Below, one piece after another: positions 5,424-56,918 of a stretch of DNA of 58,718 nt. The stretch's first letter is position 1. Every line of letters begins with the position of its first letter. The notes below the pieces were generated by a model. That model was given only the letters and a program-made list of their open reading frames with translations. It ran no database searches and was not told the DNA's origin. The position numbers and the translations under genes were made by a program. Source of the DNA: Bacillus sp. ISL-37 (GTDB lineage Bacteria > Bacillota > Bacilli > Bacillales > Cytobacillaceae); contig NZ_JAGGQL010000021.1 in assembly GCF_018613315.1 (NCBI RefSeq), positions 1 through 58,718 on the forward strand. Direction: 5' to 3'.

Positions 5424-5579
5424 CTTGTGACCGTGATACGAGTGAAAGACCGATTTGGGGCACAAGTTGCTTTTTCTTGTGACCGTGATCCGTTTGAAAG
5501 ACAGTTTTCCGGCACATGTTGGAACTTCATGTGACCGTAAACCAAGAGCAATCAAATTTTCGGGCACAAGCAAGCTATA
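5424..5579. repeat. 52-bp tandem repeat array 1 (3 units) in the nifS leader
   Basis: Three consecutive 52-base units start at 5424, 5476 and 5528. Each begins (C)TTGTGACCGT or CATGTGACCG and carries GGCACAAG or GGCACATG about 36 bases later, so each unit holds an inverted repeat (CTTGTG...CACAAG). The array ends 22 bases before the nifS start. Confidence 0.85.
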
Positions 5580-5601
5580 AATATTGAATAGGAGCGAACC
5601 C

Positions 5602-6741
5602 ATGAAATATTTCGATTATGCGGCGACATGCCCGCTTGACCGGGAAGCGGCAGATATTTTTATTCAGGCATCCACAAAGTACTATGGCAATAGCCAGAGC
5701 CTTCATGAAGCAGGCAGTGCTTCTGCTAATCTATTGGAGAGCTGCAGACAGGAATTCGCGCGCTTGCTTGGTGTTGAAAAGGCGGGGATTTATTTTACAA
5801 GTGGAGGCTCTGAAGCGAATTTTCTTGGGATTATGGCGCTCCTCTCTGCCAAAAGAAAAAACGGCAATCATATTATTACCGGGGCGGCTGAACATTCCTC
5901 CGTCTATAATTTGATGAAAAAGCTTGGAGGCGAAGGATGGGAAATCACATTTCTCCCGTTGAACAGCAGTGGCAAAATTGAGCTTGCGAGTTTCATCGAA
6001 GCTGTCCGACCCGAAACTGTGCTCGTTTCGATTCAGCATGGCAACCCTGAAGTTGGAACAATCCAGCCGATCATCAATGTGGCTGAATATTGCCGATCTG
6101 AAGAAATACTGATTCACACGGACTGTGTACAAACCTTCGGAAAAATTCCAGTTGCCCCACTGGCCGGCTGGGTAGATGCCCTTTCGATTTCAGGCCATAA
6201 GTTTTACGGACCTAAAGGAACTGGAATGGCTTATGTAAATCCGAAGCTTGCCTGGAAGCCTTACATTGATGGTACTGTACATGAAAAAGGCTTCAGGCCT
6301 GGCACGGTCAATGTACCGGGAATCGCTGCAATGACGGCAGCAGCGCAAAAAGCACATTCTCTAATGGATATAGAAACGAAAAGAGTTAATAAGTTGAGAG
6401 AGGCTCTTATCGAATCCCTTTCAGATGTCAGGGAATCAATTGAGATTTTTGGTGCAGAGGGCGATGAACAGCTTACAGGCATCATGGGAATGGCGATAAA
6501 GGGATTGGAAGGACAATATGTCCTGCTTGAATGTAACCGTCAGGGCTTTGCGATTTCCACCGGAACTGCTTGTCATACAGGCATGCTATCACCTGCAAAG
6601 ACCATGACCGCAATGGGGATCGAAGGGAAACAGGCCAAGGAATTTTTCAGAATATCCTTCGGGAGGGAAACACAGCAGGAAGATGCAGTTAATCTTGGGA
6701 AAATCCTTGCAGCAATCACCTCACAGGTGTCGGTCGTTTAA
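5602..6741 (+). CDS. nifS: Cysteine desulfurase NifS-like (NAD cluster)
   Basis: 379 residues from ATG 5602, behind AGGAGCG. A PLP enzyme that removes sulfur from cysteine. In the nad locus of Bacillus its partner is NadA, whose 4Fe-4S cluster it helps to build. The PLP lysine is K200 in SISGHKFYGPKG. The cysteine that carries the persulfide is C324 in ISTGTACHTGM. TSGGSEANFLG and AEHSSVYN mark the cofactor pocket. It is transcribed away from nadBCA and together with nadR, as in B. subtilis. Its leader carries a 52-bp repeat array. The exact promoter is not evident. Confidence 0.95.
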   Translation: MKYFDYAATCPLDREAADIFIQASTKYYGNSQSLHEAGSASANLLESCRQEFARLLGVEKAGIYFTSGGSEANFLGIMALLSAKRKNGNHIITGAAEHSSVYNLMKKLGGEGWEITFLPLNSSGKIELASFIEAVRPETVLVSIQHGNPEVGTIQPIINVAEYCRSEEILIHTDCVQTFGKIPVAPLAGWVDALSISGHKFYGPKGTGMAYVNPKLAWKPYIDGTVHEKGFRPGTVNVPGIAAMTAAAQKAHSLMDIETKRVNKLREALIESLSDVRESIEIFGAEGDEQLTGIMGMAIKGLEGQYVLLECNRQGFAISTGTACHTGMLSPAKTMTAMGIEGKQAKEFFRISFGRETQQEDAVNLGKILAAITSQVSVV

Positions 6742-6800
6742 CTTCAAGCTGTTTTTATGGTAAAATTCTCGAATGAAGAAGTCGAAGGAGAGATCGGATT

Positions 6801-7340
6801 ATGAAGGAACCTACGAAGATTCTCGGAGATGAACGCCGGGCCTATATCCTGAAACGGCTGCAGGAAAGCAGTGAGCCCATCACCGGAGGCGAGCTTTCGA
6901 CGATAACGAATGTAAGCAGACAGGTCATTGTTGGCGATATCACCTTGCTTAAAGCCAAAAACGAACCAATCATTGCTACCAGCCAGGGATATCTATATAT
7001 GCATGCATCCCGTCCTTCAGCAGCAGAAAGGACCATTGCCGTCTCCCACGGCCCTGAAAGGACAGAAGAAGAACTCCTGCTTCTTGTCGATCACGGTGTA
7101 ACTGTTAAGGACGTGAAAATCGAGCACCCTGTTTATGGGGATTTAACAGCTTCCATCATGGTCTCAAATCGAAACGAAGTAAAACAGTTCATGGAAAAAA
7201 TCAGGGCAACCAATGCTTCCTATTTATCAGAACTAACAGACGGAATCCACTTGCACACAATCTCCGCTCCGACGGAAAAAGCGCTGGATGAAGCAGAAGA
7301 AACGCTAAGAAAAGAAAAGTTACTGATTGATCTAGAATAG
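6801..7340 (+). CDS. nadR: Transcriptional repressor of NAD synthesis, NiaR/NadR (YrxA) family
   Basis: 179 residues with GGAGAG upstream. The N-terminus is a winged helix-turn-helix (residues about 10-65, GELSTITNVSRQVIVGDITLLK). The C-terminal '3H' domain carries conserved histidines in LLVDHGVTVKDVKIEHPVYGD and GIHLHTI, which bind nicotinate and metal. In B. subtilis this protein represses nadBCA and nifS-nadR when niacin is plentiful. Its position directly behind nifS fits autoregulation from the shared intergenic region. Confidence 0.95.
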   Translation: MKEPTKILGDERRAYILKRLQESSEPITGGELSTITNVSRQVIVGDITLLKAKNEPIIATSQGYLYMHASRPSAAERTIAVSHGPERTEEELLLLVDHGVTVKDVKIEHPVYGDLTASIMVSNRNEVKQFMEKIRATNASYLSELTDGIHLHTISAPTEKALDEAEETLRKEKLLIDLE

Positions 7341-7341
7341 T

Positions 7342-7380
7342 GATATAAAAAAATCCATCAATTGATGGATTTTTTATATC
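7342..7380. terminator. Bidirectional terminator between nadR and pheA
   Basis: Long palindrome GATATAAAAAAATCCATCA / ATTGATGGATTTTTTATATC. It has A and T tracts on both sides, so it can end both the rightward nadR and the leftward pheA transcripts. It overlaps the last codons of pheA. Confidence 0.9.
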
Positions 7381-8216
7381 TTATGGCTCGAATAGCTTCC
7401 AAGCATTTTAACGGTGCAGCCCAATGCCTCTAGTTCAGCAATGGCTCCTGGAATTAATACGTCATCCATTTTCAAATTAATATCGATAATGAAAAAGTAT
7501 TTTCCCAAACCTGTTTTCATTGGGCGTGATTCAATTTTAGATAGATTGAGCTTCCGCCATGAGAAAGCAGATAAGACCTGATGCAGTGCTCCTGCGCGAT
7601 CCGAAGGCAGTGTAATCATCAAACTCGTCTTGGACTCTTCAGTTGGAGCCATGAAATTGTCATGATCTTCCTTAGCCAGCACAGCAAATACGGTATGGTT
7701 ATAGCTGTAATCATGGACATTTTGCTCAACAGTGACTAATCCATATTCCTCTGCAGCAAGGCTATTCGCGATTGCCGCGATGTTTCGTCCCGGATGGTTT
7801 TGTACATACTTAGCCGCTGCGGCTGTAGATGACATATGTTCAAGAGGAATTCCTTTGAATTCTTTATGTAAAAATTTATGGCACTGAGCTAGTGCGTGTG
7901 GATGGCTGCAAATCAATTCAGCTTCCCTCCACTTTTCGATATTATCCCGATGAACCAGCAGATGCTGCATGATGGGCACCACCGCTTCACCAACAATCTG
8001 AAGGTCTGTTTCATGGACTAAATAATCAATCGTGACATTAACTGAACCCTCAATGGAATTTTCCAATGGAACGATAGCTGCATCAATTTCTCCTGCTGAA
8101 GCAGCATCCATGCATTCTGGTATACTCACAAATGGAATCCTCTTAGCCTCTTTAAACAATTGCCGGGCAGCATAGTCCGTAAATGTTGCTTCCGGTCCTA
8201 GATAACCAATAATCAA
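7374..8216 (-). CDS. pheA: Prephenate dehydratase
   Basis: 280 residues from a TTG at 8216 with GGGGGAG placed about 7 bases upstream. The ATG at 8222 sits too close to that site, and the family normally starts at the IIGYLGPEATF segment. It converts prephenate to phenylpyruvate in phenylalanine synthesis. The catalytic-domain signatures are GYLGPEATFTDYA, VPLENSIEGSVN and the SSTAAAAKYV region. A C-terminal ACT domain (from about residue 200) has the ESRP motif (KIESRPMKTGLG) that binds phenylalanine for feedback inhibition. It follows pheB by about 30 bases. Confidence 0.93.
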   Translation of the reverse strand: MIIGYLGPEATFTDYAARQLFKEAKRIPFVSIPECMDAASAGEIDAAIVPLENSIEGSVNVTIDYLVHETDLQIVGEAVVPIMQHLLVHRDNIEKWREAELICSHPHALAQCHKFLHKEFKGIPLEHMSSTAAAAKYVQNHPGRNIAAIANSLAAEEYGLVTVEQNVHDYSYNHTVFAVLAKEDHDNFMAPTEESKTSLMITLPSDRAGALHQVLSAFSWRKLNLSKIESRPMKTGLGKYFFIIDINLKMDDVLIPGAIAELEALGCTVKMLGSYSSHKI

Positions 8217-8247
8217 GCCCATCTCCCCCTGCAGCAAAGCACTCTCT

Positions 8248-8700
8248 TTAAGCTCCTGAACCCAGTACTTCAACTTTTTCTACAAATTCCAGTCTTTTCA
8301 GCCTTGCGAGCATCTCATCCATTTCGACTTTCATTTCGGTGACATTCAAGCTTAGCGTTACATTCGCCCTGCTTTGCAGAGGAATCGTTTGATGGATAGT
8401 CAGAACATTGCAGCCAGTAGCAGCAACCGTACTCAGCAGTTCGGAAAGTGTCCCCGACCGGTCTTCAAGCTGGAAAAACAGCGTAATGATCCGTTCCTTC
8501 ACAACTGTATGGAACGGAAAGACCGTATCACGATATTTGTAAAATGCACTCCGGCTCAAGTCGACCCTTTGAACGGCATCCCAGACCGACTCTGCTTTAC
8601 CACGTTCGATCATTTCCTTTGCCTCAAGCGTTTTCTTCATCGCCTCAGGCAGGACATCTTCACGAACAAGATAAAACTTCCTATCTTGATTTTGCTTCAT
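8248..8700 (-). CDS. pheB: ACT domain protein PheB
   Basis: 150 residues from ATG 8700 ([19 protein letters not shown]). A GTG nine bases upstream is the alternative. The N-terminal part resembles a helix-turn-helix with [13 protein letters not shown]. The C-terminal half is an ACT domain ([20 protein letters not shown]). In B. subtilis the gene sits between obg and pheA and is called pheB, although it is not known to be catalytic. A ligand-sensing role tied to phenylalanine metabolism is inferred. Confidence 0.9.
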
Positions 8701-8771
8701 CTCCACCACCCCATCAGAATGCCAGCCTTTTTTATTTTTGCTTTAAAAATAACCATTTTGGAAAACAACCA

Positions 8772-8972
8772 TTTTTTAAAGCTGTTTTCGTAAAGATTGT
8801 TGTTAAAATCCTAAAGCCGATTTTAACGTAATATATACCCATTTTGCAGGTCGGTATTAAGTTTGCATGCTCTTTTCTCATAAGAAGCGTCTATTCTACG
8901 AGGGAATTTAGGTGATTCACCCCAATTTTGTATTCAATAGCAACAAAGTTTGAGAAAAGAGCGTTTTTTAAA
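8772..8972 (+). mobile_element. MITE-like element, copy A, with flanking direct repeats
   Basis: The body 8781-8963 (183 bp) is flanked by the 9-bp direct repeat TTTTTTAAA (8772-8780 and 8964-8972). The ends are imperfect inverted repeats, GCTGTTTTC at the left and GAAAAGAGC at the right. Inside are a 9-bp hairpin GTTAAAATC/GATTTTAAC (8802-8827) and a 12-bp inverted pair GCTCTTTTCTCA (8869-8880) / TGAGAAAAGAGC (8951-8962). It is roughly 80% identical, in opposite orientation, to the element at 54534-54714. It encodes no protein. Confidence 0.8.
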
Positions 8973-8975
8973 GAG

Positions 8976-9011
8976 GAAAGCCGATTAACCTGTGCTGGCT
9001 AATCGACCTTC
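8976..9011 (-). terminator. obg terminator
   Basis: On the minus strand AGGtCGATTAgCC pairs with GGtTAATCGgCTTT across a 6-base loop and is followed by a modest pyrimidine run. The MITE-like copy A begins immediately beyond it. Confidence 0.6.
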
Positions 9012-9026
9012 TAAAATCATTTAAGC

Positions 9027-10319
9027 CTATTCCACGAATTCAAATTCATATTCAAGCAGTTTGACTGTATCTCCATCTTTCGCGCCTCTTTCACGAAGTC
9101 CATCATCAATGCCCATACCGCGCATCTGGCGGGCGAATCTTTGAACAGATTCATCCCTTGAGAAGTCAGTCATCTTGAACAGCCTTTCAATACTGTCACC
9201 CGAAATGACAAATGTTCCATCCGATTCACGGGTAATCTGGAATTCCTGTTCAGCTTTTTCATGCTTGTACATCACGCGGTTTTCATCTTTTTCTAATTCC
9301 TCTTCTTCAATGAGAGGGAACTCAGGAGTCTTTTCAATCAGGTCAGCTACCGCGAACAATAATTCACGCAAACCTTCTCTCGTAACAGCTGAGATAGGGA
9401 AAACAGGGTGTTCGTCCCCTAGCTTTTCCTTGAACACTTTCAGATTTTCTTCCGCATCAGGCATGTCCATTTTATTGGCTACAATTACTTGTGGTCTCTC
9501 TGTCAGCCTCAAGTTATATTCTTTCAATTCATTATTGATCGTTAAATAATCCTCATAAGGTTCGCGGCCTTCTGTTGCGGCCATGTCGATTACATGGATG
9601 ATTACTCGTGTACGTTCTATATGGCGCAGGAACTGATGCCCAAGGCCCACTCCTGAATGCGCACCTTCGATAAGACCTGGCAAGTCCGCAAGAACAAAGC
9701 TTCTGCCATCTTCCGTTTCGACCATACCGAGATTCGGAGCAATCGTCGTGAAGTGGTATTCCGCAATTTTCGGTCTAGCTGCTGAAACAACAGACAACAA
9801 CGTAGATTTCCCTACGCTTGGGAAGCCTACTAGCCCTACATCCGCAAGAAGTTTCAATTCCATGATGATTTCTTTTTCTTGCCCTGGCTCACCTTTTTCG
9901 GAAAGCTCTGGTGCCGGGTTAGCCGGTGTTGCGAAACGCGAGTTACCACGTCCGCCGCGACCGCCCTTAGCGATAACAGCCTTCTGGCCATGCTCTACCA
10001 GGTCAGCAATGATCGCGCCAGTCTCTGCATCAGATACAATTGTCCCTGGTGGAACCTTTACTATCATATCCTTCGAATTCTTACCATGCTGGTTTTTAGA
10101 CATTCCGTGCTCGCCGCGCGGTGCCTTGAAGTGGCGCTGGTATCTGAAATCCATCAGCGTGCGCAGTCCCTCTTCTACCTGGAAGACTACATTTGCACCG
10201 TTACCGCCGTCGCCGCCAGCAGGGCCGCCCTTCGGAACATATTTTTCACGTCGGAACGCGACCATTCCATCGCCGCCGTCCCCGCCTTTTACATAAATCT
10301 TAACCTGATCGACAAACAT
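9027..10319 (-). CDS. obg: GTPase Obg/CgtA
   Basis: 430 residues. An essential ribosome-associated GTPase for 50S maturation; in Bacillus it is also needed for the stress response and for starting sporulation. The N-terminal glycine-rich OBG fold occupies about residues 1-158 ([30 protein letters not shown]). The G domain has G1 [10 protein letters not shown]3 [12 protein letters not shown] and G4 [10 protein letters not shown]-terminal OCT domain ends at FEFVE. It lies downstream of spo0B, matching B. subtilis. Ribosome site GGTGG upstream. Confidence 0.97.
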
Positions 10320-10366
10320 TATGTCATTACCACCTGTCTGAAATTTGTTATCGCTTCTATGTTTCC

Positions 10367-10906
10367 CTAGAGTGATTCCAAGAAAACTTCTATCGTCAAT
10401 TCCCCATCGACTACGCCATCCGACATTACTTTCATATTGTAACCCGGCTGCTGGTCAAGGAAACTTTTCAAGCGGTTTTTATCATTTATTATTCCGCTAA
10501 AATCAAAAAAGAACCCGATTCCTTTCTCTTGCGGTTCAATTGTGACGGAGAGATGATTTTCCTGATATGGTTCAATCGAAGAATTCAATGCATCAAAAAG
10601 CTGCTCTGTCCAGTGAGTCAACACCTGGTCATCTAATCTGTGGAAGTTCTGGGAGTCCATTACTTCATATTCCAATTGGAAATGATGATTCTCCCAATTG
10701 CAGGTTAACAATGTAGAGGCAAACTGAGGAAGATGTAAATTAGATAGCTTTGCATCCTGCCTGGCTTCCATGATAATTTCTTCAATGATCTCTTTAGCCC
10801 GGTCCACTTTATTCAGCGATAAATTCCCTTTAATTAGTTGAAGCTGATTCATCCAATCATGGCGTGCATGGCGCAATACCTCGATTGTATCCCACTCTTT
10901 TTTCAT
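10367..10906 (-). CDS. spo0B: Sporulation initiation phosphotransferase Spo0B
   Basis: 179 residues from ATG 10906 ([10 protein letters not shown]) behind TAGGAG. Upstream in-frame ATGs overlap that site. Spo0B relays phosphate from Spo0F to Spo0A. The phosphorylated histidine is H16 in [19 protein letters not shown], matching H30 of B. subtilis. The remainder is a degenerate histidine-kinase-like domain. Its place between rpmA and obg is the conserved one. Confidence 0.93.
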
Positions 10907-11027
10907 ACACATACTCCTACTCATAAGACTGCTTGGTGTAAGTATAACAAAAAAGCCATTCTGCGTAAGCTAATTATGTATTTAAGTTAGTTGGATTTCT
11001 TTTATTCGTGTCCATAAGCCATAAAAT

Positions 11028-11062
11028 ACAAGAAAACCCTAACCGCAGTGGTTAGGGCTTCT
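11028..11062 (-). terminator. rplU-prp-rpmA terminator
   Basis: Perfect stem CCCTAACC / GGTTAGGG with a 5-base loop, followed on the minus strand by TTTTCTTG. It lies just after rpmA. Confidence 0.85.
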
Positions 11063-11069
11063 CTTTGGC

Positions 11070-11360
11070 TTACGCTTCTTGAGCTGCAGGATAAACACTT
11101 ACTTGCTTGCGGTCACGGCCAAGACGTTCGAATTTAACGACGCCGTCAACCTTAGCGAATAGAGTGTCATCTCCACCTTTACCCACGTTTACACCTGGGT
11201 AGATTTTAGTTCCGCGCTGACGATAAAGGATAGAACCACCAGATACGAATTGACCATCTGCACGCTTAGCGCCAAGGCGCTTAGAGATTGAGTCACGTCC
11301 GTTCTTAGTTGAACCTACACCCTTCTTAGAAGCGAAGAATTGAAGATCTAATCTTAACAT
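11070..11360 (-). CDS. rpmA: 50S ribosomal protein L27 with cleavable N-terminal extension
   Basis: 96 residues. L27 sits near the peptidyl transferase centre. The N-terminus [18 protein letters not shown] carries the Firmicutes-type extension that must be removed after FFA by the Prp protease. The mature part has the usual [19 protein letters not shown] and [10 protein letters not shown] segments. It is co-transcribed with prp and rplU. Confidence 0.97.
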
Positions 11361-11373
11361 TTTGTTCCACCTC

Positions 11374-11706
11374 CTACTGTTTGAAGGTTAATTTTATATG
11401 CTTTCCGTAATCTTTTTCCATCGATTGCAATGTAATGACCATGCTTTCAAGGAGTAGTTGGATTTTCTCCTGTGTTTCCACCGGCAAATTGTCGGGGATT
11501 TCACAGCGGAGAAAACCATCGGCACCTTGTTCAATGTCTGGGGTGACTCCTGTCAATCCGATGATGGAATTGACTGTCCCGATTGAGATGGTCGAAACAC
11601 CTGCACAGACAATGTCACTGCCATGGGCAGCGAATCCAGCGTGGCCGCTAATCGTAAACGATTGGATGCTTCCGGATTTTGTACGATTAATCGTTGCACG
11701 AATCAT
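11374..11706 (-). CDS. prp: Ribosomal-processing cysteine protease Prp (YsxB)
   Basis: 110 residues. The catalytic dyad is visible as H22 (ISGHAGFA) and C34 (DIVCAGVS), at the same positions as in the Staphylococcus aureus enzyme. It trims the N-terminal extension of L27, which is encoded next to it and has the expected cleavage motif. The gene sits between rplU and rpmA, the standard Firmicutes arrangement. Confidence 0.93.
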
Positions 11707-11721
11707 GGTAATCCGCCCTAA

Positions 11722-12030
11722 TTAAGCGTTGATCTTTTCGATAACAACTTTAGTGTAAGGCTGACGATGACCTTGCTTCTTACGATTGTTCTTTTTCGCT
11801 TTGTACTTGAAAACGATGATTTTCTTTTGACGGCCGTTCTTTTCAACTTTAGCAGTTACAGTTGCGCCTTCAACTACTGGGCTACCAACTTTAACGTTAT
11901 CGCCACCTACAAAAAGAACCTTGTCAAAAGTTACAGTTTCGCCTTCAGCTGCGTTTAGCTTTTCAATGTAGATTGCTTGTCCTTCTTCTACCTTTACTTG
12001 CTTGCCGCCAGTTTCGATAATTGCGTACAT
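11722..12030 (-). CDS. rplU: 50S ribosomal protein L21
   Basis: 102 residues from ATG 12030 ([14 protein letters not shown]) behind GAGGAGGTG. The in-frame extension to 12090 belongs to the leader RNA. The C-terminal [16 protein letters not shown] segment is the family's signature end. First gene of rplU-prp-rpmA. Confidence 0.97.
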
Positions 12031-12037
12031 TCCAGTG

Positions 12038-12145
12038 CACCTCCTCATTAGACTCAGACTCGCCAACCGCAGGCGTTTGCGTATTTGCAAAGCTTAGATA
12101 CCTGAAGTGTGCGGTTGTAGCACGGGTGCTACAAACAATAACATT
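12038..12145 (-). promoter_or_regulatory. L21 leader RNA (autoregulatory ribosomal protein leader)
   Basis: The transcribed leader before rplU contains pairing blocks: TGTAGCACCCGTGCTACA near its 5' end and CGCAAACGCCTGCGGTTGGCG nearer the gene. It also has the segments CGCACACTTCAGGTATCTAAG and GAGTCTGAGTCT. These match my memory of the L21 leader family found upstream of rplU in Bacillales, where L21 is thought to bind its own mRNA. Confidence 0.7.
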
Positions 12146-12148
12146 AAA

Positions 12149-12178
12149 ATATTACCATATGGTTAGCGAAAGTGTCAA
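12149..12178 (-). promoter_or_regulatory. rplU promoter (sigma-A type)
   Basis: Minus-strand TTGACA (12173-12178) and TAATAT (12149-12154) are separated by 18 bases. They lie just upstream of the L21 leader. Confidence 0.75.
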
Positions 12179-12215
12179 CATAATAATCGGCATTCTTTTA
12201 ATGGCCAGCTTTGGT

Positions 12216-13670: not shown

Positions 13671-13686
13671 TATTTCTCCTTAACCA

Positions 13687-13727
13687 CAAAAAAAATGCAG
13701 CGCAAAGAGTGTCTGCGCTGCTTTTAT
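13687..13727 (-). terminator. spoIVF operon terminator
   Basis: Perfect stem GCAGCGCA / TGCGCTGC with a 9-base loop, followed on the minus strand by ATTTTTTTTG. It separates spoIVFB from rng. Confidence 0.9.
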
Positions 13728-13736
13728 TATCCTATT

Positions 13737-15375: not shown

Positions 15376-15384
15376 CCAATCCCC

Positions 15385-15450
15385 ACCATTCCCCTTGTAC
15401 TCTAAGTTAGTACAAGTCTATGACCTGTCCCACAAGAGTATGACAATTTC
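15385..15450 (-). promoter_or_regulatory. Candidate spoIVF promoter region with CTTGTACT palindrome
   Basis: A perfect inverted repeat CTTGTACT...AGTACAAG (about 15395-15417) lies just before spoIVFA. On the minus strand, GTCATAGA and AGTACAAG 15 bases apart loosely resemble a sigma-E promoter, which is the known control of spoIVF in B. subtilis. The match is weak. Confidence 0.35.
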
Positions 15451-15476
15451 ACTTATTAGAAAGTGAGGATTAAATA

Positions 15477-40187: not shown

Positions 40188-40470
40188 ATAAAAAACTCCA
40201 TTCGCCTTAAAAGGACGAATGGAGTTTGTTCGCGGTACCACCTTTTTTCCCAGCAACGGTTAAAACAGTTTTGTTGCTGGCTCAAATATGGATAACGGTT
40301 CTTCACCGTCGCCTGTTACTGGGAGTTTACCCGTTCCCAGGCGATGCTCAAGGGCGACCTTCCATGGTTCCTGCTTAGAAGTCCTCTCAGCTACTGGACT
40401 CCCTCTCTTCAAGCTGGCTGCTCATGTACTCTTCCCTGTCAAAGCTTTGCTTTATAGTGTTTTTGTATAT
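40188..40470 (-). promoter_or_regulatory. T-box leader (valine tRNA-responsive) of valS
   Basis: The minus-strand leader contains the T-box core GGTGGTACCGCG (40231-40242). It is followed at once by a terminator whose stem is AACTCCATTCG and CGAATGGAGTTTTTT (40190-40227). Upstream lie an AGTA box (GAAGAGTACATGAG) and long pairing blocks (GCCTGGGAACGGG / CCCAGTAACAGGC). A GTC triplet in GGAAGGTCGCCC is the likely valine specifier codon. Uncharged tRNA-Val should stabilise the antiterminator. Confidence 0.9.
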
Positions 40471-43370: not shown

Positions 43371-44062
43371 TAGAGTGACTTCAGACAAATTCGCTTGTAA
43401 ATGACGGGACTTTGGTCGAACTTGGGGCTACTTCGGACAATTCCTCGTGACTATGACGGTATTTTGTCTGAACCTGGGGCTACTTCAGACAAATCTTCTT
43501 GTAAATGACGGGACTTTGGCCGAACTTGGGGCTACTTCGGACAATTCTTCGTGTCTATGACGGTGTTTTGGCCGAACCTGGGGCTACTTCGGACATTTCC
43601 TCGTGACTGTGACGGTGTTTTGACTGAACCTGGGGCTACTTCGGACATTTCCTCGTGACTGTGACGGTGTTTTGACTGAACCTGGGGCTACTTCGGACAT
43701 TTCCTTGTGACTATGACGGTGTTTTGGCCGAACCTGGGGCTACTTCGGACATTTCCTCGTGACTATGACGGTATTTTGTCTGAACCTGGGGCTACTTCAG
43801 ACAAACCTTCTTGTAAATGACGGGACTTTGGCCGAACATGGGGCTACTTCAGACATTTCCTCCTGACTATGACGGTATTTTGTCTGAACCTGGGGCTACT
43901 TCGGACATTTCCTCGTTTCTATGACGGTATTTTGTCTGAACCTGGGGCTACTTCAGACATTTCTTCGTGTCTATGACGATATTTTGTCTGAACCCAAGCT
44001 ACTTGAGACAAATCTGTTGAAGGCATCAGGGTCTTGTCCGAACGTAAGGCACTTCACACAAG
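43371..44062. repeat. 52-bp tandem repeat array 2 (12 full units)
   Basis: Twelve units of exactly 52 bases run from 43406 to 44029, with partial units at both ends (43371-43405 and 44030-44062). The core of each is TGTCTGAAC-CTGGGGCTAC-TTCGGACA, a dyad with about a 10-base loop. The spacer is CGTGACTATGACGG or TTGTAAATGACGG. Arms change together: TCTGAA with TTCAGA, and CCGAA with TTCGG. The array fills most of the 957-base spoVID-hemL gap. No gene is visible there. Confidence 0.97.
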
Positions 44063-44161: not shown

Positions 44162-45451
44162 TTAATTCTGCAACTTCGTAAATGCTTTCTCAGCTGCTTC
44201 AATTGTTTTTTGCAGGTCTTCGTCTGTGTGTGCTGTTGACAGGAATAATCCTTCGAACTGCGATGGCGGAAGGAACACTCCTTCGTTCGCCATTTCACGG
44301 TAGTAGGCTGCAAAAAATTCAAGATTTGATTGTTTTGCTACTTCATAGTTGATGACATTTTCGTTTGTGAAGAAGATGCCGATCATCGATCCTGCACGGT
44401 TGATTGTATGCGGAATCCCGTATTTCTCAGCCGCTGCTTTTAGTCCTTTTTCAAGGATATCAGCTTTGCGCTCAAACTCTTTGTATGATTCTGGCGTCAA
44501 CTGCTTCAATGTTTCCAGGCCAGCTGTCATCGCCAGCGGGTTGCCTGATAGCGTTCCCGCCTGGTAAATCGGTCCGCTTGGAGCGATTTGTTCCATGATC
44601 TCTCTCTTACCGCCGTATGCTCCTACTGGAAGTCCTCCGCCTATTACCTTGCCAAGGCAAGTAAGGTCAGGAGTTACATTGTAATAACCCTGAGCACAGT
44701 TATAGCCTACCCGGAAGCCTGTCATGACCTCGTCAAAAATAAGGACAGTGCCATACTGGCTTGTGATTTCGCGAAGTCCTTCTAGGAATCCTTCTACTGG
44801 TGGAACGACACCCATATTCCCGGCTACTGGTTCAACGATCACGCCGGCGATATCATCACCATATTGTTCGAATGCGTAACGGACGCTCTCAAGATCGTTA
44901 TAAGGTACTGTGATTGTGTTTTTTGCAACTCCCTCAGGAACACCCGGGCTGTCAGGCAAACCAAGCGTAGCGACGCCTGAGCCAGCTTTTATAAGCAATG
45001 AGTCACCATGTCCATGGTAGCAGCCTTCAAACTTAACGATTTTGTTTCTCCCTGTATACCCACGAGCAAGGCGCAATGCACTCATAGTCGCCTCAGTACC
45101 CGAAGATACCATTCTTACCATCTCAATCGATGGAACACGGTCAATGACCAACTGTGCAAGCTCGTTCTCAACAGTTGTCGGTGCACCGAAGCTTGTACCA
45201 AGCTCAGCCACTTTCTTGATTCCCTCAACGACCTTCTCGTTCGTGTGGCCAAGGATCAGCGGTCCCCAAGATAATACATAGTCAATATATTCATTGCCAT
45301 CGATGTCATAAATCTTTGAACCCTTCCCTTTTTCCATGAAGATCGGATCCATATTGACAGACTTGAATGCGCGGACGGGGCTGTTTACTCCTCCAGGCAA
45401 TAGTTCTTTCGCTTCTTTAAAAGCTGCAATCGATTTATCATATGAGCGCAT
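44162..45451 (-). CDS. hemL: Glutamate-1-semialdehyde 2,1-aminomutase
   Basis: 429 residues from ATG 45451 ([17 protein letters not shown]) with GAGGG upstream. A PLP enzyme converting glutamate-1-semialdehyde to 5-aminolevulinate. Motifs: [50 protein letters not shown] and the PLP lysine in [17 protein letters not shown]. Last gene of the haem operon. Confidence 0.97.
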
Positions 45452-45509
45452 AATATCCCTCATTTCTATTTAATTGGCTCTGTAGAAAATCAGAGCCTTT
45501 TTCATATCC

Positions 45510-48199: not shown

Positions 48200-48212
48200 G
48201 ACAGCCTCCTAA

Positions 48213-49046: not shown

Positions 49047-49060
49047 GGACACTACCTCTC

Positions 49061-50407
49061 TTACGGCTGAAAAGAAGCCTGTGGCGAAGGAACTTTTACC
49101 TGCTTAGTTTCAGCTGTTTTCATTCCTTCTTGTTCAGCGACGAGCTGTTCAATATTAAAAATCTTCACGAAAAGATTAAGTGCTTCCTCTGCATCTGGAC
49201 CATCCGCAAGCTCCTTCGCCTGCAAAATCGGATCCTTCAGAAGTTGATTGATGATGCTCTTTGTATGCTTGTTAAGGACTTTAATATCACGATCTGATAG
49301 ATGAGGCAGTTTGCGTTCGATACTGTTCATCGTTTCTTGCTGGATAGAAAGAGCCTTGACCCTCAAAGCAGAAATGACCGGAACAACGCCAAGCGTATTC
49401 AGCCACTGTTTGAATTGGACAATCTCACTTTCAATCATGATAAGAATCTTCTCTGCTGCCTTCTGTCGTTCCTGCAGATTGGCTTCAACAATGCCCTCTA
49501 GATCATCGATATCATAAAGGAATACATTTTCCAGAGTCGCAATTTCCGGATCAAGATCACGGGGAACAGCGATATCCACCATGAATAATGGTTTTCCTTT
49601 TCGCTTTTGTTCGACCTTTGCCATCATATCCTTTGTGACGACAAAGTCCTTTGCACCTGTTGAACTGATAAGGATATCTGCATCCACCAGCGCAGTCTGG
49701 AGCTCATCCAAAGTTTTGGCCATGCCGGAAAAACGATTAGCCAAATCTTCAGCTTTCTGGTAAGTACGGTTGATGACCGTTACTTTCTTCGCTCCATTAG
49801 CATGAAGGTTCTGGATTGCCAGCTCGCCCATCTTGCCTGCACCAAGAATCAGCACATGCTTTTGATCAAGAGAGCCAAAAATCTTCTTGGCAAGTTCAAC
49901 AGCTGCGTAGCTGACAGAAACAGCGTTCGCACCGATATCTGTTTCGGAATGGCCACGCTTGGCAATAGTGACTGCCTGCTTGAATAGCTGGTTGAAGACG
50001 GTTCCAGTAGTGTTCTTTTCAAGGCCAAGCATGAAGCTTGAACGCACTTGCCCTAGGATTTGAGTTTCGCCCAGCACCATGGAGTTCAAGCCGCAAGAAA
50101 CCTTGAATAAATGTTCAATTGCCCCATCTTGTTCGTAAATGAACAGGAACGGCGTAAATTCTGCCTGAGGGATCCCGAACCATTCAGATAAAAACTCTTT
50201 GATATAATATCTGCCGGTGTGGAGCTGGTCCACGACAGCATATATTTCTGTACGGTTGCAAGTTGATACGATGACGTTCTCCAGGATGCTCTTCTTTTCT
50301 TGAAGGGCACTCATCGCTTCACCAAGGTTTCCCTCGTTGAATGTCAATCTTTCGCGGATTTCGACAGGGGCAGTTTTATAGTTTAGACCAACAACGATAA
50401 TATGCAT
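49061..50407 (-). CDS. hemA: Glutamyl-tRNA reductase
   Basis: 448 residues from ATG 50407 ([20 protein letters not shown]). It reduces glutamyl-tRNA to glutamate-1-semialdehyde, the first step of C5 haem synthesis. The nucleophile is C50 ([14 protein letters not shown]). The NADPH domain has [13 protein letters not shown], and a C-terminal dimerisation helix follows. First gene of hemA-X-C-D-B-L. The ribosome site GGGGGTG lies unusually far (about 10 bases) from the start. Confidence 0.97.
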
Positions 50408-50453
50408 TATTAATTGACACCCCCACATAGAAATTGCATAATTGGCTAAGGCA

Positions 50454-50482
50454 ATTATACACGACGTTTTTTACCTTTTAAT
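50454..50482 (-). promoter_or_regulatory. Probable hem operon promoter
   Basis: Minus-strand TATAAT at 50454-50459, about 47 bases before hemA. The hexamer 17 bases upstream (ATTAAA) is a weak -35. I did not find a clear PerR box, although the B. subtilis hem operon is PerR-regulated. Confidence 0.35.
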
Positions 50483-50536
50483 GTTGTAAATGTGAACAAC
50501 TGTTGAAAAAACATATATATAATAGCATTAATTAAA

Positions 50537-50565
50537 TTGAACTATTTCGTCTGTCTGTTTGTTAT
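50537..50565 (+). promoter_or_regulatory. Possible promoter of the ysxD-like gene
   Basis: TTGAAC (50537-50542) and TGTTAT (50560-50565) lie 17 bases apart, about 100 bases before the gene start. Weak match; the region is AT-rich. Confidence 0.3.
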
Positions 50566-50665
50566 ACTTTTATACTATATCAAAAGCAAATAAACATACT
50601 CCCTAATGTACCTTATCAAAGTTTGTCCCTTAATTCAAGTGAGCCTTTCTGGAAGTGGTGAAGGA

Positions 50666-51151
50666 ATGAAAAATCAGAGAATTATACCAGGAATGATATT
50701 AATAGGATTTGGAATCTATTTTTATCTTCAACAGGAAAATGTTTCGTTGTTCAATGAATTTTATACGTGGCCTACACTCTTGATCATTGTCGGGGCTGCC
50801 TTTTTAGTTCAAGGATACTGGGGCAAGGATTATGAAGCCATCTTTCCAGGTGTGATCCTCGTTGGCTTCGGTGTTCACTTTCATGTGGTCAATAAATTCG
50901 ACCTCTGGCCCGATCACCTTGGTGCTTTTATTTTAATCATTGCTCTCGGCTTCTTGCTCCGCTATCAAAAAACAGGCAATGGCTTGTTTCACGGAGTCCT
51001 CTTTCTCATTTTAGCAGGGTTGCTTCTGTTTTATGACAGAATCACTGGATGGCTTGGTTTATTAGAAAATGGAGTCGCGACAGCATGGAGATTTTGGCCG
51101 GCAGCATTGATCCTTATTGGCGTTTACCTTTTATTTATAAAAAAGAAATAA
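50666..51151 (+). CDS. ysxD: Membrane protein, YsxD-like (LiaI/LiaF-type transmembrane region)
   Basis: 161 residues from ATG 50666 (MKNQRIIPGMILIGFGIYF). Four or more hydrophobic segments occur in repeated glycine-rich form (PGMILIGFGIYFYL, PGVILVGFGVHFHV, WPAALILIGVYLLF), like the membrane part of LiaI/LiaF proteins. In B. subtilis ysxD lies at this place between engB and hemA, which gives the name. Function unknown. Here it faces engB convergently. Confidence 0.7.
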   Translation: MKNQRIIPGMILIGFGIYFYLQQENVSLFNEFYTWPTLLIIVGAAFLVQGYWGKDYEAIFPGVILVGFGVHFHVVNKFDLWPDHLGAFILIIALGFLLRYQKTGNGLFHGVLFLILAGLLLFYDRITGWLGLLENGVATAWRFWPAALILIGVYLLFIKKK

Positions 51152-51218
51152 TAAAACTGACTAGATTCAGGAGTGAGACACTAATCTTCGTGCAAAAAGT
51201 AAATACTTAATAAAGTAA

Positions 51219-51262
51219 TAAAAACCCGCACCGTGTTCATCAACGGTGCGGGTTTCTTATTG
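51219..51262. terminator. Bidirectional terminator between the ysxD-like gene and engB
   Basis: Perfect 12-bp stem AACCCGCACCGT / ACGGTGCGGGTT with an 8-base loop, AT-rich on both sides. It lies between convergent genes. Confidence 0.9.
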
Positions 51263-51269
51263 CAAACGA

Positions 51270-51854
51270 TTATTTCATGAAGCTTCCTAAAACTGACCAG
51301 GCCTTGTCTTTCCCTTCTCCTGTTTCTGATGAGAAAAGAATGATCGTGTCGTTCGGGTCTAAATCAAGGGTTTCTTTTGTAATCTTTAAATGCTTTTGCC
51401 ACTTTGACTTTGGAATTTTATCCGCTTTAGTCGCGATAATGATGACCGGAATCTCGTAATGCTTGAGGAAATCATACATCATCACATCGTCTTTTGAAGG
51501 CGGATGCCTCAGGTCAACGATCAGCAGCATCGCCTTCAATTGTTCGCGTGAGGTAATATAGGTTTCAATCATCTTGCCCCAGGCTTCACGTTCGGATTTT
51601 GATACTTTAGCGTAGCCGTAACCTGGAACATCTACAAAGTGAAGCATTTCATTGATCAGGTAAAAATTCAAGGTCTGAGTCTTTCCTGGCTTCGAGGATG
51701 TCCTGGCAAGGCTTTTCCGGTTAAGCATTTTATTGATAAAAGAAGATTTACCAACATTCGATCGGCCTGCAAGCGCGAATTCCGGCAGATTACTTTCCGG
51801 ATACTGATTCGGCCTTACGGCACTGATCACGATTTCTGCACTATTTACTTTCAT
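51270..51854 (-). CDS. engB: Ribosome biogenesis GTPase EngB (YsxC)
   Basis: 194 residues. G1 [13 protein letters not shown], switch [14 protein letters not shown]3 [12 protein letters not shown] and G4 IIATKADKI are clear. Essential for 50S subunit assembly in B. subtilis. Its ATG overlaps the lonA stop (ATGA), giving coupling. Confidence 0.97.
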
Positions 51855-54178
51855 TGAGAATCACCGCTGGCGAGAGCGTGCTTCAATACTTCATCTAAAT
51901 GAGAAACTAACACAAATTCAAGCTCCTTACGTACACTTTCTGGAATATCATCAATATCTTTTTCATTATCCTTTGGACAAATAACCTTTGTTAGACCTGC
52001 TCTGTGAGCGCTCAACGATTTTTCCTTGAGACCGCCAATTGGCAATACGCGTCCTCTAAGCGTTATTTCTCCGGTCATTCCCACTTCCCTGCGGATCGGT
52101 TTTCCTGACAAAGCAGATACAAGTGCAGTAGCAATCGTAATACCCGCTGAAGGACCATCTTTCGGAACAGCACCCTCAGGAACATGGATATGGATATCAT
52201 TCTTCTCATGGAAGTCCGGATCAATGTCCAAATCCTTCGCTTTTGAGCGCACATAGCTGAAGGCAGCCTGGGCAGATTCCTTCATGACATCCCCAAGCTT
52301 ACCAGTAAGGACGAGCTTGCCTTTTCCTGGTGACAGGGAAACTTCAATTTGGAGGGTATCGCCACCGACTGTTGTATAAGCGAGACCAGTGGCAACGCCT
52401 ATCTGGTCTTCCAACTCAGCCTGCCCATACCTGAACTTAGTCTTTCCGAGGAAGTCCTCGACGTTCTTCTCACTAACGATCACACGTTTTTTCTCTCCAG
52501 AAACAACGATTTTCGCTGTTTTCCTGCAGATGGATGCAAGCTGCCTCTCAAGGGATCGCACACCAGATTCCCGAGTATAATAACGAATTACCTTCGTAAT
52601 CGCCTCATCCTTCATCTGAAGCTGTGATTTTGACAGACCATGGTCCTTGATTTGTCTTGGAAGGAGATGATCTTTGGCAATGTGCAGCTTTTCCTGCTCT
52701 GTATAGCCTGCAATATTGATGATCTCCATTCTGTCGAGCAACGGGCCAGGTACAGTTGAAAGATTATTGGCAGTAGCGATGAACATTACTTTTGAAAGGT
52801 CATATGGCTCTTCAATGTAATGATCGCTGAAATTATGGTTTTGTTCGGGATCGAGCACCTCTAGCATCGCAGAAGAAGGATCGCCGCGGAAATCATTGGA
52901 CATTTTATCGATTTCATCAAGAAGGAAAACAGGGTTAATCGTTCCTGCCTTTTTCATCCCCTGGATGACCCTTCCCGGCATAGCACCGACATAAGTCCGT
53001 CTGTGGCCGCGAATTTCCGACTCATCACGGACACCACCTAAAGACACCCTTACAAAATTACGGTTCAGGGATTTAGCGATTGACCTGGCCAAGCTTGTTT
53101 TACCGACTCCCGGAGGTCCAGCCAGACACAGGATTGGTCCTTTTAAAGAGTTCGTCAGCTTCTGCACCGCAAGATACTCAAGAACCCTTTCCTTTACTTT
53201 TTCCAGTCCGTAATGGTCCTTATCAAGGATCTTTTCAGCTTTGCTGATATCAAGATCATCCTCCGTCGACTTTGACCAAGGCAAAGCAACAAGCCATTCA
53301 ATATAATTCCGAATTACTGCGCTTTCTGCAGAAGTCGTCGGAACCTTTTCGTAACGGTCAAGTTCCTTCAAAGCAGTTTCCTTCACATTTTCAGGCATTC
53401 CGGCAAGCTCAATTTTTTCGGTAAGCTCAGCAATTTCTCCTGTCTTTCCTTCCTTTTCACCAAGCTCCTTCTGGATGGCCTTCATCTGTTCACGCAAATA
53501 ATATTCTTTCTGAGTTCGCTCCATGGAACGCTTTACACGCTGTCCAATCTTTTTCTCGAGGCCCAGCACTTCTTTTTCATTATGAATGATTTCAATGACA
53601 CGATTCATCCGGTCCTTGATGTCAATCGTCTCGAGAATTTCCTGTTTCTCTTTAAGCTTTAGCGGAAGATGGGAAGCGATGATATCAGCCATCCTACCCG
53701 GCTCTTCAATATCAGAAACAGATGCATACGTTTCCGCAGAAATTTTCTTGGACATTTTTATGTATTGTTCGAAATACTCAAGCATTGTCCTCATTAATGC
53801 TTCATCTTCGACATCCTTTGATTCATCATCTTCAAAGGTTTTTACTTTACAGGAATAATGGTCATTCTCATCAAAAAGTTCAATGATTTCAGCTCTGGAC
53901 AATCCTTCAACCAACACGCGGATCGTCCCGTTCGGGAGCTTCAGCATTTGTTTGACGCGAGTCAATGTACCCATCTGGTACAAATCCTCCTCGCCTGGTT
54001 CATCTATGGATATATCCTTTTGGGTTGTGAGATAGATTAAATGGTCATCCACCATTGCCTTCTCCAATGCCTGTACCGATTTTTCTCGTCCTACATCCAA
54101 ATGCAGAACCATCGTCGGGTACACAAGCAAACCGCGCAGCGGCAGAAGTGGGACAGTGTGCTCATTCTTATTCGCCAT
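51851..54178 (-). CDS. lonA: ATP-dependent protease La (LonA)
   Basis: 775 residues with GGAGGTG upstream. N-terminal substrate-binding domain ([20 protein letters not shown]), coiled-coil middle ([20 protein letters not shown]), AAA+ module with Walker [12 protein letters not shown] and Walker [11 protein letters not shown]. The C-terminal protease has the Ser-Lys dyad ([16 protein letters not shown]). Degrades misfolded and regulatory proteins. Forms a unit with engB. Confidence 0.97.
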
Positions 54179-54499
54179 GACATTGCACCTCCAACATGCA
54201 TTGTATCAAACCATAAGTATAATAATACTTTGTTGTTCAATTCTATCGTATTTATTTTCAAGTGTCTAATAACAAGAGCAGTTAGCACCTTATTGCCTCA
54301 TTGATTAGTATCCTGATATTCATGTGAAAATATGTCTACATCTGAAGTTACTTTCAAAACCAAACATAAGCTTATTTCTTTTGGAAAATAGCAAATTCAG
54401 CCCGGGTACCTTCATTACACCCTCTTTCCTTTTTCAGGGAAAAATAAACCCGTTCCTACTGTTTGGTTAACTTTTGGCGAAACAGCAGCAAAACAGCGT
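54179..54499. other. lonA upstream region
   Basis: 321 bases without a gene between lonA and the lonB terminator. It is AT-rich and should hold the lonA promoter. TTAGAC and TAGAAT 18 bases apart on the minus strand are a weak candidate. No operator I can name. Confidence 0.4.
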
Positions 54500-54531
54500 A
54501 AAAAAAGAACGCCGGCAAGCGTTCTTTTTTA
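54500..54531 (-). terminator. lonB terminator, displaced by an inserted element
   Basis: AAAAAAGAACGC pairs with GCGTTCTTTTTT. The T-rich tract on the lonB side is part of the 10-bp direct repeat flanking the MITE-like copy B. The element therefore lies between the lonB stop codon and its terminator. Confidence 0.85.
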
Positions 54532-54724
54532 ATGGCTCTTTTCTCCAACTTAGTTGCTATTGACTACAAAATAGGATTGAATTACCTAAGTTCCTTTACA
54601 AAATTAACGCTTAATGTGAGAAAAGAGCTTGCAAACTTAATACCGACATACAAACTGGCTTTTATCACGTTAAAATCGGCTTTAGGATTTTAACAACATC
54701 TTTACGAAAACAGCCTTTTTTAAT
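54524..54724 (-). mobile_element. MITE-like element, copy B, with 10-bp flanking direct repeats
   Basis: The body 54534-54714 (181 bp) is flanked by CTTTTTTAAT on both sides (54524-54533 and 54715-54724). On the minus strand it starts GCTGTTTTCGTAAAGAT and ends GAGAAAAGAGCC. The internal hairpin GTTAAAATC/GATTTTAAC (54669-54694) and the paired GCTCTTTTCTC / GAGAAAAGAGC (54535-54545 and 54618-54628) are shared with copy A. Its direct repeat differs from that of copy A, as expected for target-site duplications. Confidence 0.85.
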
Positions 54725-54725
54725 A

Positions 54726-56393
54726 TTAGCTCGTCTCTTTTGCCGTTAAGTCACTGGCAGCCTTGATGATTTGCTCCCTCGGATGGTCTTTTTCAAGAGC
54801 AATTTCAAACACTTCATTCAGGTGTGTGACTGGAATGATTTCTATATCTGTGATTTCATTAAGGATGGTCTGCACATTTTCCTGCGGAATGATTACCTTT
54901 TTGGCACCTGCTTTTTTCGCTGCCTTCACTTTTGGATAGACACCGCCAATCGGCTTTACATTCCCATGGATGCTAATTTCTCCTGTCATTGCGACTGTAT
55001 GGTCCATTGGGATTTTATAGATTGCTGAATAAATTCCCGTAGCCATTGCAATTCCAGCAGATGGACCATCGATTGGGGTACCTCCAGGGAAATTGACATG
55101 GATGTCGAATTCATCAGCTGGAACACCCATTGATCTAAGAACAGTGATGACATTTTCAATTGAACCTCTCGCCATACTCTTTCTGCGGATTGATTTTCCC
55201 TGTCCGCCGATGCTCTCTTCATCGACGATGCCAGTGATATTGATTGAGCCTTTATCCTTCGCTTTGATGACTGTCACTTCGATTTCAAGAAGCGCACCCG
55301 TATTGGGCCCATACACAGCCAATCCATTGACAAGACCGACCGTTGACTTTTCATTGATTCTTCTTTCCATCCTTGGTGTGAGCTGGCTCGAATGGACGAC
55401 CCATTCAATTTCCTCTTCTTTAATGTAAGTTCGTTCGTCAGTAATTGCTAATCCTGCAGCAATCTGCACCATATTTACGGCTTCACGGCCATTTCGTGCA
55501 TAATTTGACAAGATTTCAATCGCTTTTTCACTCATATTCAGTTCTACTTTTTCAGCTGCATTCCTTGCTACTTCTGAAATTTCCTCCTGTGATAACTCAC
55601 GGAAAAACACTTCCATGCATCTCGATCTGATTGCCGGAGGGATTTCGCTTGGAGTTCTCGTCGTCGCGCCTACAAGGCGGAAGTCTGCCGGGAGCCCATT
55701 TTTGAAGATGTCGTGGATATGGCTTGGGATTTGCGTATTTTCCTCATTATAATACGCACTCTCTAAAAATACTTTCCTGTCTTCCAGTACTTTTAAAAGC
55801 TTGTTCATCTGGATTGGGTGCAGCTCACCAATTTCATCAATGAATAAAACTCCTCCATGAGCATTGGTCACTGCACCCTGTTTCGGCTGAGGAATGCCAG
55901 CCTGTCCCATCGCACCAGCCCCTTGATAAATCGGATCATGAACGGAACCGATTAATGGGTCAGCAATTCCTCTCTCATCAAACCTGGCCGTTGTAGCATC
56001 CAGCTCAACAAATACTGAAGATTTTTTGAAGGGGGATTTTTGGTTTTGCTTTGCTTCTTCTAATACGAGCCTGGCGGCGGCAGTTTTTCCTACTCCCGGT
56101 GGCCCATAAATGATGACATGCTGCGGATTGGGTCCACATAACGCTGCTTTAAGTGCCTTGATTCCATCTTCCTGCCCGACAATGTCCTTGAAGCTGGATG
56201 GCCTGACTTTTTCGGCAAGCGGTTCACTCAGGGAGACCGATCTCATCTTTCTTAACTGTTCCATTTCCTTTCGGGATTCCCGATCAATTGATACTTTTTG
56301 CGTCCGCTGATTCCTGAGTAAATTCCAGAAATACAGCCCGATGATGATTCCGAAAAACAGCTGTATAAACAAGGCGATTCCGGTCCAACTCAA
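54726..56393 (-). CDS. lonB: ATP-dependent Lon-like protease LonB (sporulation type)
   Basis: 555 residues from TTG 56393, with GGAGGG eight bases upstream. N-terminal membrane anchor (LFIQLFFGIIIGLYFWNLL). The AAA+ domain has [16 protein letters not shown] and GVLFIDEIGELHPIQ. The protease domain has the serine in IDGPSAGIAMATGIY and the paired lysine in GGVYPKVKAAKKAG. Unlike LonA it lacks the long N-terminal domain. In B. subtilis it is made in the forespore under sigma-F. Its transcript now has a ~182-base insertion before the terminator. Confidence 0.95.
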   Translation of the reverse strand: MSWTGIALFIQLFFGIIIGLYFWNLLRNQRTQKVSIDRESRKEMEQLRKMRSVSLSEPLAEKVRPSSFKDIVGQEDGIKALKAALCGPNPQHVIIYGPPGVGKTAAARLVLEEAKQNQKSPFKKSSVFVELDATTARFDERGIADPLIGSVHDPIYQGAGAMGQAGIPQPKQGAVTNAHGGVLFIDEIGELHPIQMNKLLKVLEDRKVFLESAYYNEENTQIPSHIHDIFKNGLPADFRLVGATTRTPSEIPPAIRSRCMEVFFRELSQEEISEVARNAAEKVELNMSEKAIEILSNYARNGREAVNMVQIAAGLAITDERTYIKEEEIEWVVHSSQLTPRMERRINEKSTVGLVNGLAVYGPNTGALLEIEVTVIKAKDKGSINITGIVDEESIGGQGKSIRRKSMARGSIENVITVLRSMGVPADEFDIHVNFPGGTPIDGPSAGIAMATGIYSAIYKIPMDHTVAMTGEISIHGNVKPIGGVYPKVKAAKKAGAKKVIIPQENVQTILNEITDIEIIPVTHLNEVFEIALEKDHPREQIIKAASDLTAKETS

Positions 56394-56554
56394 TTTACAT
56401 TCCCTCCCGTAAGTTGATACTATTGGCTTTAACCTAGTATCTCCCTGAGAGTGTTGGAATAAACAATATTTTCAAGTGAATTTTTCCACCCGGAGAGACC
56501 TTATTCTGGAAGGATTAAAGAGTGTTTCGTCAAAATGAATAAAGCATTTTCTGG

Positions 56555-56918
56555 TTCTGACAGCTTTTCTTCTTTTACCGCTGAACCTGTCCGAAGTTTG
56601 CTCTTGTTCTGACAGCTTTTCCTATTCCACCACCAAACCTGTCCGAAGTCGGCCTTAGTTCTGACAGCTTTTTCTCTTTCAACACCAAACCTGTCTGAAG
56701 TTGCCCTTAGTTCTGACAGCTTTTCTTCTTCCACCACCAAACTTGTCCGAAGTTGTCCCTAGTTCTGACAGCTTTTCCTCTTCCACCACCAAACCTGTCG
56801 GAAGTTGCCCTTACTTCTGACAGCTTATCCTATTCCACCACCAAACCTGTCCGAAGTCGGCCTTAGTTCTGACAGCTTTCCTTCTTTTCACACCAAACTT
56901 GTCTGAAGTTTGCTCTGG
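56555..56918. repeat. 52-bp tandem repeat array 3 (7 units)
   Basis: Seven units of exactly 52 bases begin TTCTGACAGCTTTTC and contain CACCAAACCTGTCCGAAG. TTCTGACAG and CTGTC(C/T)GAA form an inverted repeat both within a unit and across unit borders. The array fills most of the 605-base gap between lonB and clpX. A 79-codon frame on the minus strand is a by-product of the repeats. Confidence 0.97.

Follow-up and report, generated by a model that had tools for sequence, protein, structure and literature searches.

Tandem arrays with a constant 52-bp unit in Bacillus sp. ISL-37 and its relatives mostly carry inverted half-sites at fixed spacing and may be lattices of protein-binding sites

Why should tandem arrays of differing sequence, lying between different genes, keep one unit length of 52 bp? 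The question is raised by three arrays in a 58,718-nt stretch of Bacillus sp. ISL-37 (contig NZ_JAGGQL010000021.1, hereafter the window), which is contig C14 of the 62 contigs of a 4.74-Mb genome (G000). The class is already published and the window's arrays are members of it: the main text of Subirana & Messeguer 2021 (PMC8161180) describes 52-nt tandem repeats of constant size, variable sequence and unknown function in Bacillus, counts 1886 repeats of 51-53 nt among 4029 tandem repeats in 176 Bacillus genomes, cites a report in J. Bacteriol. 2020 as the first of the class, and offers no obvious explanation for the constant length. Relative to that main text (its supplementary tables and the 2020 report lie outside the comparison), what appears new here is the anatomy of the unit, namely its dyad geometry, half-site consensus and cross-species footprint; none of these was seen there, nor was a helical-turn argument for the number 52. 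The unit is a half-site, 11 bp, an inverted half-site and 25 bp. We propose, with a probability of about 0.45, that each array provides a putative DNA-binding protein with a lattice of sites on double-stranded DNA. The three arrays of the window are as follows.

5424-5579, no strand: array 1, 3 x 52 bp; half-sites TTGTGACC, 25 bp, GGGCACAA, 11 bp; flanked by divergent genes that we take to be nadB-like (minus) and nifS-like (plus).
5425-5465, no strand: first module of array 1; TTGTGACC at 5425-5432, 25 bp, GGGCACAA at 5458-5465.
43406-44029, no strand: array 2, 12 x 52 bp; half-sites TGTCYGAA or TGGCYGAA, 11 bp, TTCRGACA, 25 bp; downstream of a presumed hemL (44162-45463, minus).
56555-56918, no strand: array 3, 7 x 52 bp; half-sites TTCTGACA, 25 bp, TGTCYGAA, 11 bp; between what are presumably clpX (56999-58291, minus) and a lonB-like gene (54726-56393, minus).

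These bounds are exact multiples of 52 and fit the sequence, as the first-pass annotation of this DNA had it, and Tandem Repeats Finder (TRF) reports period 52 at 5426-5538, 43401-43994 and 56554-56913. The same annotation had called the arrays sequence-unrelated, which is true of the spacers only: the arm word TGTCYGAA is common to arrays 2 and 3, as it had also seen, and one geometry of 8-bp half-site, 11 bp, inverted half-site and 25 bp runs through all three (array 1 reads GGGCACAA-11-TTGTGACC-25 in the other frame). Its phrase 'freely varying sequence' cannot be kept, because the half-sites are constrained. Its claim of a dyad in every unit holds in part. The dyad CTTGTG/CACAAG is exact in unit 1 of array 1, and array 3 has the dyad TTCTGACA/TGTCYGAA; units 2 and 3 of array 1 have one changed arm each, and the consensus unit of array 2 has no dyad scoring 5 or more. 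Array 2 mixes TGTC and TGGC forms of the word and contains the exact TGTCYGAA-11-TTCRGACA at 4 places. Spacers repeat within each of the three arrays.

The dyad was scored for the window together with loci L016-L055 and L066-L235, a set of 207 arrays of at least 104 bp (170 of period 52, 4 of 51 and 4 of 53) that includes motif-chosen loci, orthologous arrays and array 3 twice and is not deduplicated. A strong dyad (score of at least 8) is present in 147 of the 170 period-52 arrays as against 2.7% of shuffled units. It is centred on a base in 141 cases and between bases in 6, the corresponding values for shuffles being 42 and 49. Arrays without the seed word have the dyad in 21 of 31 cases, 18 of them base-centred and 3 not. 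On measuring the distance between neighbouring half-sites of the CGAA word class, at loci partly chosen by motif, a gap of 11 bp was found in 1185 of 1211 cases (12 being off by one base) and a gap of 25 bp in 1178 of 1247 (45 off by one). In the own genome alone, gaps below 60 bp are 11 bp in 200 of 206 and 25 bp in 206 of 217. Each gap is held separately and not merely their sum, and as gaps of 11 and 25 bp stand on alternate sides, equivalent bases come to lie 26 bp apart both ways.

From 40 half-sites in the 20 seed-free arrays passing the filter, the half-site consensus is AAAnn[T/G]G[T/G]C with the G and the C invariant; it may be noted that the frame was picked between two options partly by these letters, so this invariance is somewhat favoured by the method. 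The core is followed by 4-6 array-specific bases (CGAA, CGTCAT, CG(A/T)TAGA, A(A/T)GA, TAAT, ACAAG, ACCAAT or ACATA). One genome has several array families of different sequence, and short words occur with their reverse in the same repeat unit. A likeness of the words to sporulation regulator sites was also considered, and was set aside because different arrays have different words. Two period-53 arrays of the own-genome sample (L026:7718-7862 and L027:18119-18325), with arms of CATAAGGGTAC / GTACCCTTATG type at another spacing, are perhaps a separate subfamily. Arrays also have a moderate bias to start or finish with a GACA-25-TGTC module (leftmost 82 vs 39, rightmost 77 vs 49), on which we do not rely.

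How common is the 52-bp length? In 400 kb of contig C55 of the own genome, chosen regardless of arrays, there are 26 tandem arrays of 100 bp or more, with period 52 in 15, 51 in 2, 53 in 2, 104 in 1 and another value in 6. Hence 19 of 26 fall at 51-53 with diverse consensus sequences, in samples and not whole genomes, which is the sharp peak that the first-pass annotation had proposed to look for; the broad spread of periods and the dyad-less units that it named as contrary outcomes are not what we see, given the 147 of 170 period-52 arrays with a strong dyad. The density is about 1 array per 20 kb, which extrapolates to a couple of hundred 52-bp-type arrays per genome. The pattern TGTCYGAA-N11-TTCRGACA (up to 2 mismatches) has 310 matches in the own genome vs 5 for the reversed pattern. 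Several contigs of this assembly (C4, C12, C15, C17, C25, C35, C37, C48, C54, C59 and C62) end inside or near 52-bp arrays, and therefore the assembly was probably broken by arrays and the array counts are lower bounds. Among sampled relatives, arrays are at period 52 in 5 of 6 (G003), 3 of 6 (G009), 1 of 1 (G041) and 2 of 4 with one more at 51 (G040), in 100 kb each. As a control, 39 stretches (762,656 bp) from 19 other genomes of the class contained 5 arrays, none of them at period 51-53. An additional stretch, selected from the motif-positive genome G525, had 3 arrays with periods 51, 52 and 121.

Across genomes, a 27-base motif (up to 1 mismatch) is found in 20 of the 21 genomes of the genus, the remaining one, G019, having a single match, equal to its control. 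A 60-base tandem motif (up to 2 mismatches) is present in 105 of 193 family genomes, 15 of 25 genera and 19 of 21 genomes of the genus, with 0 for the reversed-pattern controls, and in 6 of 398 class genomes from an even draw, two of the 6 belonging to the own genus. These counts detect the CGAA word class only, and therefore a zero does not equal an array-free genome; G019 has one 52-bp array of another word. A scan of named genomes with the longer motif form gave at least 109 stretches, and among the 80 matches listed are Mesobacillus, Neobacillus, Cytobacillus, Bacillus methanolicus, Evansella, Texcoconibacillus and others. Eight loci with many arrays (L089, L098, L115, L117, L131, L132, L136 and L142) are titled Chryseobacterium sp. 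ISL-80, which is odd for that genus and perhaps a mislabelled record.

The sites of the window's arrays were then followed through the genus, locus identity being judged by the flanking gene and not by flank alignment. Next to clpX, 15 of 21 genomes, the own included, have a 51-52-bp array (14 with TRF period 52 and one with 51); six genomes are without it, one of these having a short flank. A 52-bp array adjoins nifS in 13 of 21 genomes and hemL in 12 of 20, the own genome again included. On comparing consensus units between congeners, the arms are identical at 0.92 and 0.94 and the spacer at 0.57 for hemL, the values for nifS being 0.88, 0.89 and 0.50. At these two of the three loci, the half-sites therefore change slower than the 25-bp spacers. 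At hemL, the last three spacer bases, which precede the left half-site, are invariant. The arrays seem, from such comparison of sequences, to be old residents of their sites, because array 2 has, elsewhere in the own genome, no long match better than 70% identity over about 550 bp, vs 49 of 52 identical bases between the hemL consensus of G008 and that of the window. An empty-site comparison beside clpX in four genomes was too diverged to reveal an insertion scar. In three congeners a 20/21-bp array lies downstream of hemL (L263 of G007 at 1322-1432, L264 of G006 at 2868-2978, L274 of G019 at 3096-3217); at a given site, one of the two constant-length classes may take the place of the other.

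Could the arrays simply be neutral or selfish satellites, grown by slippage or unequal exchange, in which the 52-bp length would merely descend from an ancestral unit that has since spread and diverged? The copy number beside clpX, 2.3 to 21.6 across congeners, and the fact that arrays can be missing would both suit such an origin. Also, some arrays repeat more strongly at 104 than at 52 bp, as two-unit duplications give; one such case is the array L016:13440-13917, with autocorrelation 0.95 at 104 bp vs 0.70 at 52, a two-unit repeat of the kind that a recent dimer duplication would give. Yet indels do occur, as seen in the gaps off by one base, and do not spread even though the nifS and hemL spacers are only about half identical, and the half-sites at these two loci evolve slower than the spacers. 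We consider this explanation unlikely.

The gene context bears on another possibility, that the arrays are local operators, i.e. clustered sites through which ordinary transcription factors control the adjoining genes. The half-sites are inverted and of operator size, and at nifS and hemL the arrays largely keep their place and word class from species to species. The context was judged for 33 of the 35 arrays in the sampled stretches and the window, the remaining 2 being at stretch ends; the 33 stand between tandem (23), convergent (6) or divergent (4) genes, as against 120, 19 and 25 of the 164 background intervals over 100 bp on C55. As the gene calls are plain open reading frames (ORFs), this is rough, and at that level a strong promoter or terminator preference is absent. 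With no promoter bias in the contexts, an erratic copy number and a fixed 52-bp pitch that local regulation does not need, operators are quite improbable. The arrays are non-coding: 30 of the 33 judged are not mostly within an ORF of at least 90 aa and 3 are mostly within an ORF call. Elsewhere in the window, imperfect tandem repeats at 8-459, with periods of 21-135 bp in multiples of three, are probably coding.

The preferred lattice of binding sites would work as follows. The putative protein would bind as a dimer on each inverted pair and contact its neighbours. DNA has 10.4 bp per helical turn. The 26 bp between equivalent bases would then be 2.5 turns and the 52-bp unit 5.0 turns, such that successive dyads would face exactly opposite ways and every unit would show the same face. 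In this register the protein could form a straight filament or bridge two DNAs. The likeliest role would be nucleoid organisation or topology over, by extrapolation, a couple of hundred intergenic sites. Copy number would shift via unequal exchange. Selection would act against units of any other length, since these disturb the register. Support comes from the dyad, the held gaps, the slower half-sites at two loci, the position beside the same gene in many congeners, the lack of within-unit covariation among well-preserved units and the presence of arrays in all gene contexts. On the anatomy of the unit, the lattice is the best of the explanations weighed here. The first-pass annotation had suggested that length is maintained, perhaps by a protein lattice; the geometry and the cross-species comparison fit this.

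Several observations weigh against the lattice. No binding protein was found, in a search confined to PF01797. A strong dyad is lacking in 23 of the 170 period-52 arrays, and 2 of 42 own arrays, array 2 included, have no consensus dyad scoring 5. Arrays can be missing, as G012 has 0 of 2 at period 52 in 180 kb and G019 1 of 4 in 200 kb. The clpX arrays show little contrast in conservation between the 25-bp spacer (0.74) and the arms (0.80 and 0.77), in a comparison that includes one row (G009) in the wrong frame. Half-site words vary among arrays of one genome (CGAA, CGTCAT, ACAAG and others), so that either a single protein of loose specificity or several paralogues would be required. A symmetric lattice also does not predict two strand effects: of 75 arrays flanked by co-directional genes, 56 have their purine-rich strand in the gene sense, for which replication or transcription polarity could be the source, and G-U mismatches slightly exceed A-C (151 vs 122 on the gene strand, 323 vs 256 on the purine-rich strand). 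Lastly, RNA-seq reads from the 52-nt arrays of B. coagulans are reported in the companion paper (PMC8625621).

The last three points speak for a transcribed RNA, with the units acting as small RNAs or RNA hairpins. The G-U excess is, however, small and the units are not independent. The raw within-unit covariation is high by permutation (z 8.8 and 10.3), but the signal also appears between half-sites several units apart, and it is gone after dropping units below 80% identity to the consensus (z -1.8 for the 11-bp gap and +2.0 for the 25-bp gap, controls -3.5 to +2.2); we attribute the raw value to phase slips and degenerate ends. Also, arrays occur between convergent and divergent genes, and no Rfam family matches the window's three arrays at gathering score. 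(Away from them, Rfam marks an ordinary T-box leader at 40208-40451, minus, and ribosomal L21 leader at 12046-12126, minus.) An RNA role is thus distinctly unlikely.

The same data address a DNA hairpin or cruciform, in which the dyad would be kept so that a single strand can fold. Arms do vary among arrays and yet match within an array, and at clpX G004 has TGTCCAAA with TTTGGACA, i.e. both sides changed, vs the left arm TGTCCGAA in 9 of 15 arrays. Once poor units are removed, however, the arms vary independently within arrays. The fifth half-site base varies on both sides and pairs in just 64.5% of units, and in array 3 the sequence gives a Watson-Crick fifth pair in 0 of 7. The loss of covariation on trimming together with the near balance of G-U and A-C is evidence against hairpins, which we regard as very improbable.

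Intergenic, palindromic and present in many copies, the arrays also resemble repetitive extragenic palindromic (REP) elements, the mobile palindromes moved by Y1 transposases (REP-associated tyrosine transposases, RAYT). The own genome has no Y1_Tnp (PF01797) match despite its 310 motif sites, nor have the motif-rich G020, G055, G062 and G066, and in genus g20, 8 of 13 genomes have Y1_Tnp matches, none of these being motif-bearing; it may be noted that PF01797 cannot tell RAYT from IS200-type enzymes. Array 2, the only one searched, was unmatched in plasmids and phages, and the exact motif is absent from viral contigs. As the Y1_Tnp profile does not track the arrays, mobile palindromes were rejected and are hardly credible. 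For the dedicated expansion mechanism offered by the first-pass annotation there is likewise no evidence, the Y1 transposases being the sole enzyme family tested.

On extending the lattice to the whole genome, one may imagine a chromatin-like system in which a single lattice protein, or several paralogues, would recognise inverted half-sites of AAAnnTGTC type at 26-bp steps and cover a couple of hundred arrays between genes, the unit length being locked to 5.0 turns; the 20-21-nt arrays may then be a second, two-turn version able to replace 52-bp arrays at a site. This extension is tentative and we hold it to be doubtful in its full form. A lattice protein, if there is one, would be a sequence-guided nucleoid organiser of a new kind among the relatives of Bacillus. 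The fixed half-site geometry makes the constant-length puzzle a bench question, for which array DNA is a ready bait, with changes of half-site or pitch as controls.

Among known systems, REP elements and bacterial interspersed mosaic elements (BIME) with RAYT are alike in being intergenic palindromic repeats of many copies, but the 52-bp arrays have a fixed tandem pitch and stand in a genome without a Y1_Tnp match. Clustered regularly interspaced short palindromic repeats (CRISPR) share the regular pitch and the constant and variable parts, whereas the spacers of the 52-bp arrays are not unique and the arms are short and inverted. The 20-21-nt repeats, which the main text of PMC8161180 links (for 21 nt) to two helical turns, are alike in their constant length and occur both in the own genome (contig C55, L024:9565-9678 and L035:1268-1380, word TTATTGGCGA) and downstream of hemL in G006, G007 and G019; unlike the 52-bp units, the two own arrays repeat one word in direct orientation at steps of 20 and 21 bp, with no inverted half-sites by eye. 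The closest system is the 52-nt class itself. In the same text its minimum is 4 repeats, so arrays 2 and 3 qualify with 12 and 7 units and array 1 has only 3; B. subtilis and its kin are repeat-poor, short words and their reverse often stand within one repeat, and a polymerising nucleoid protein or small RNAs were already proposed. As described there, the class agrees with the present arrays in its period of 51-53, variable sequence, several families per genome, patchy occurrence by species and partial conservation between strains.

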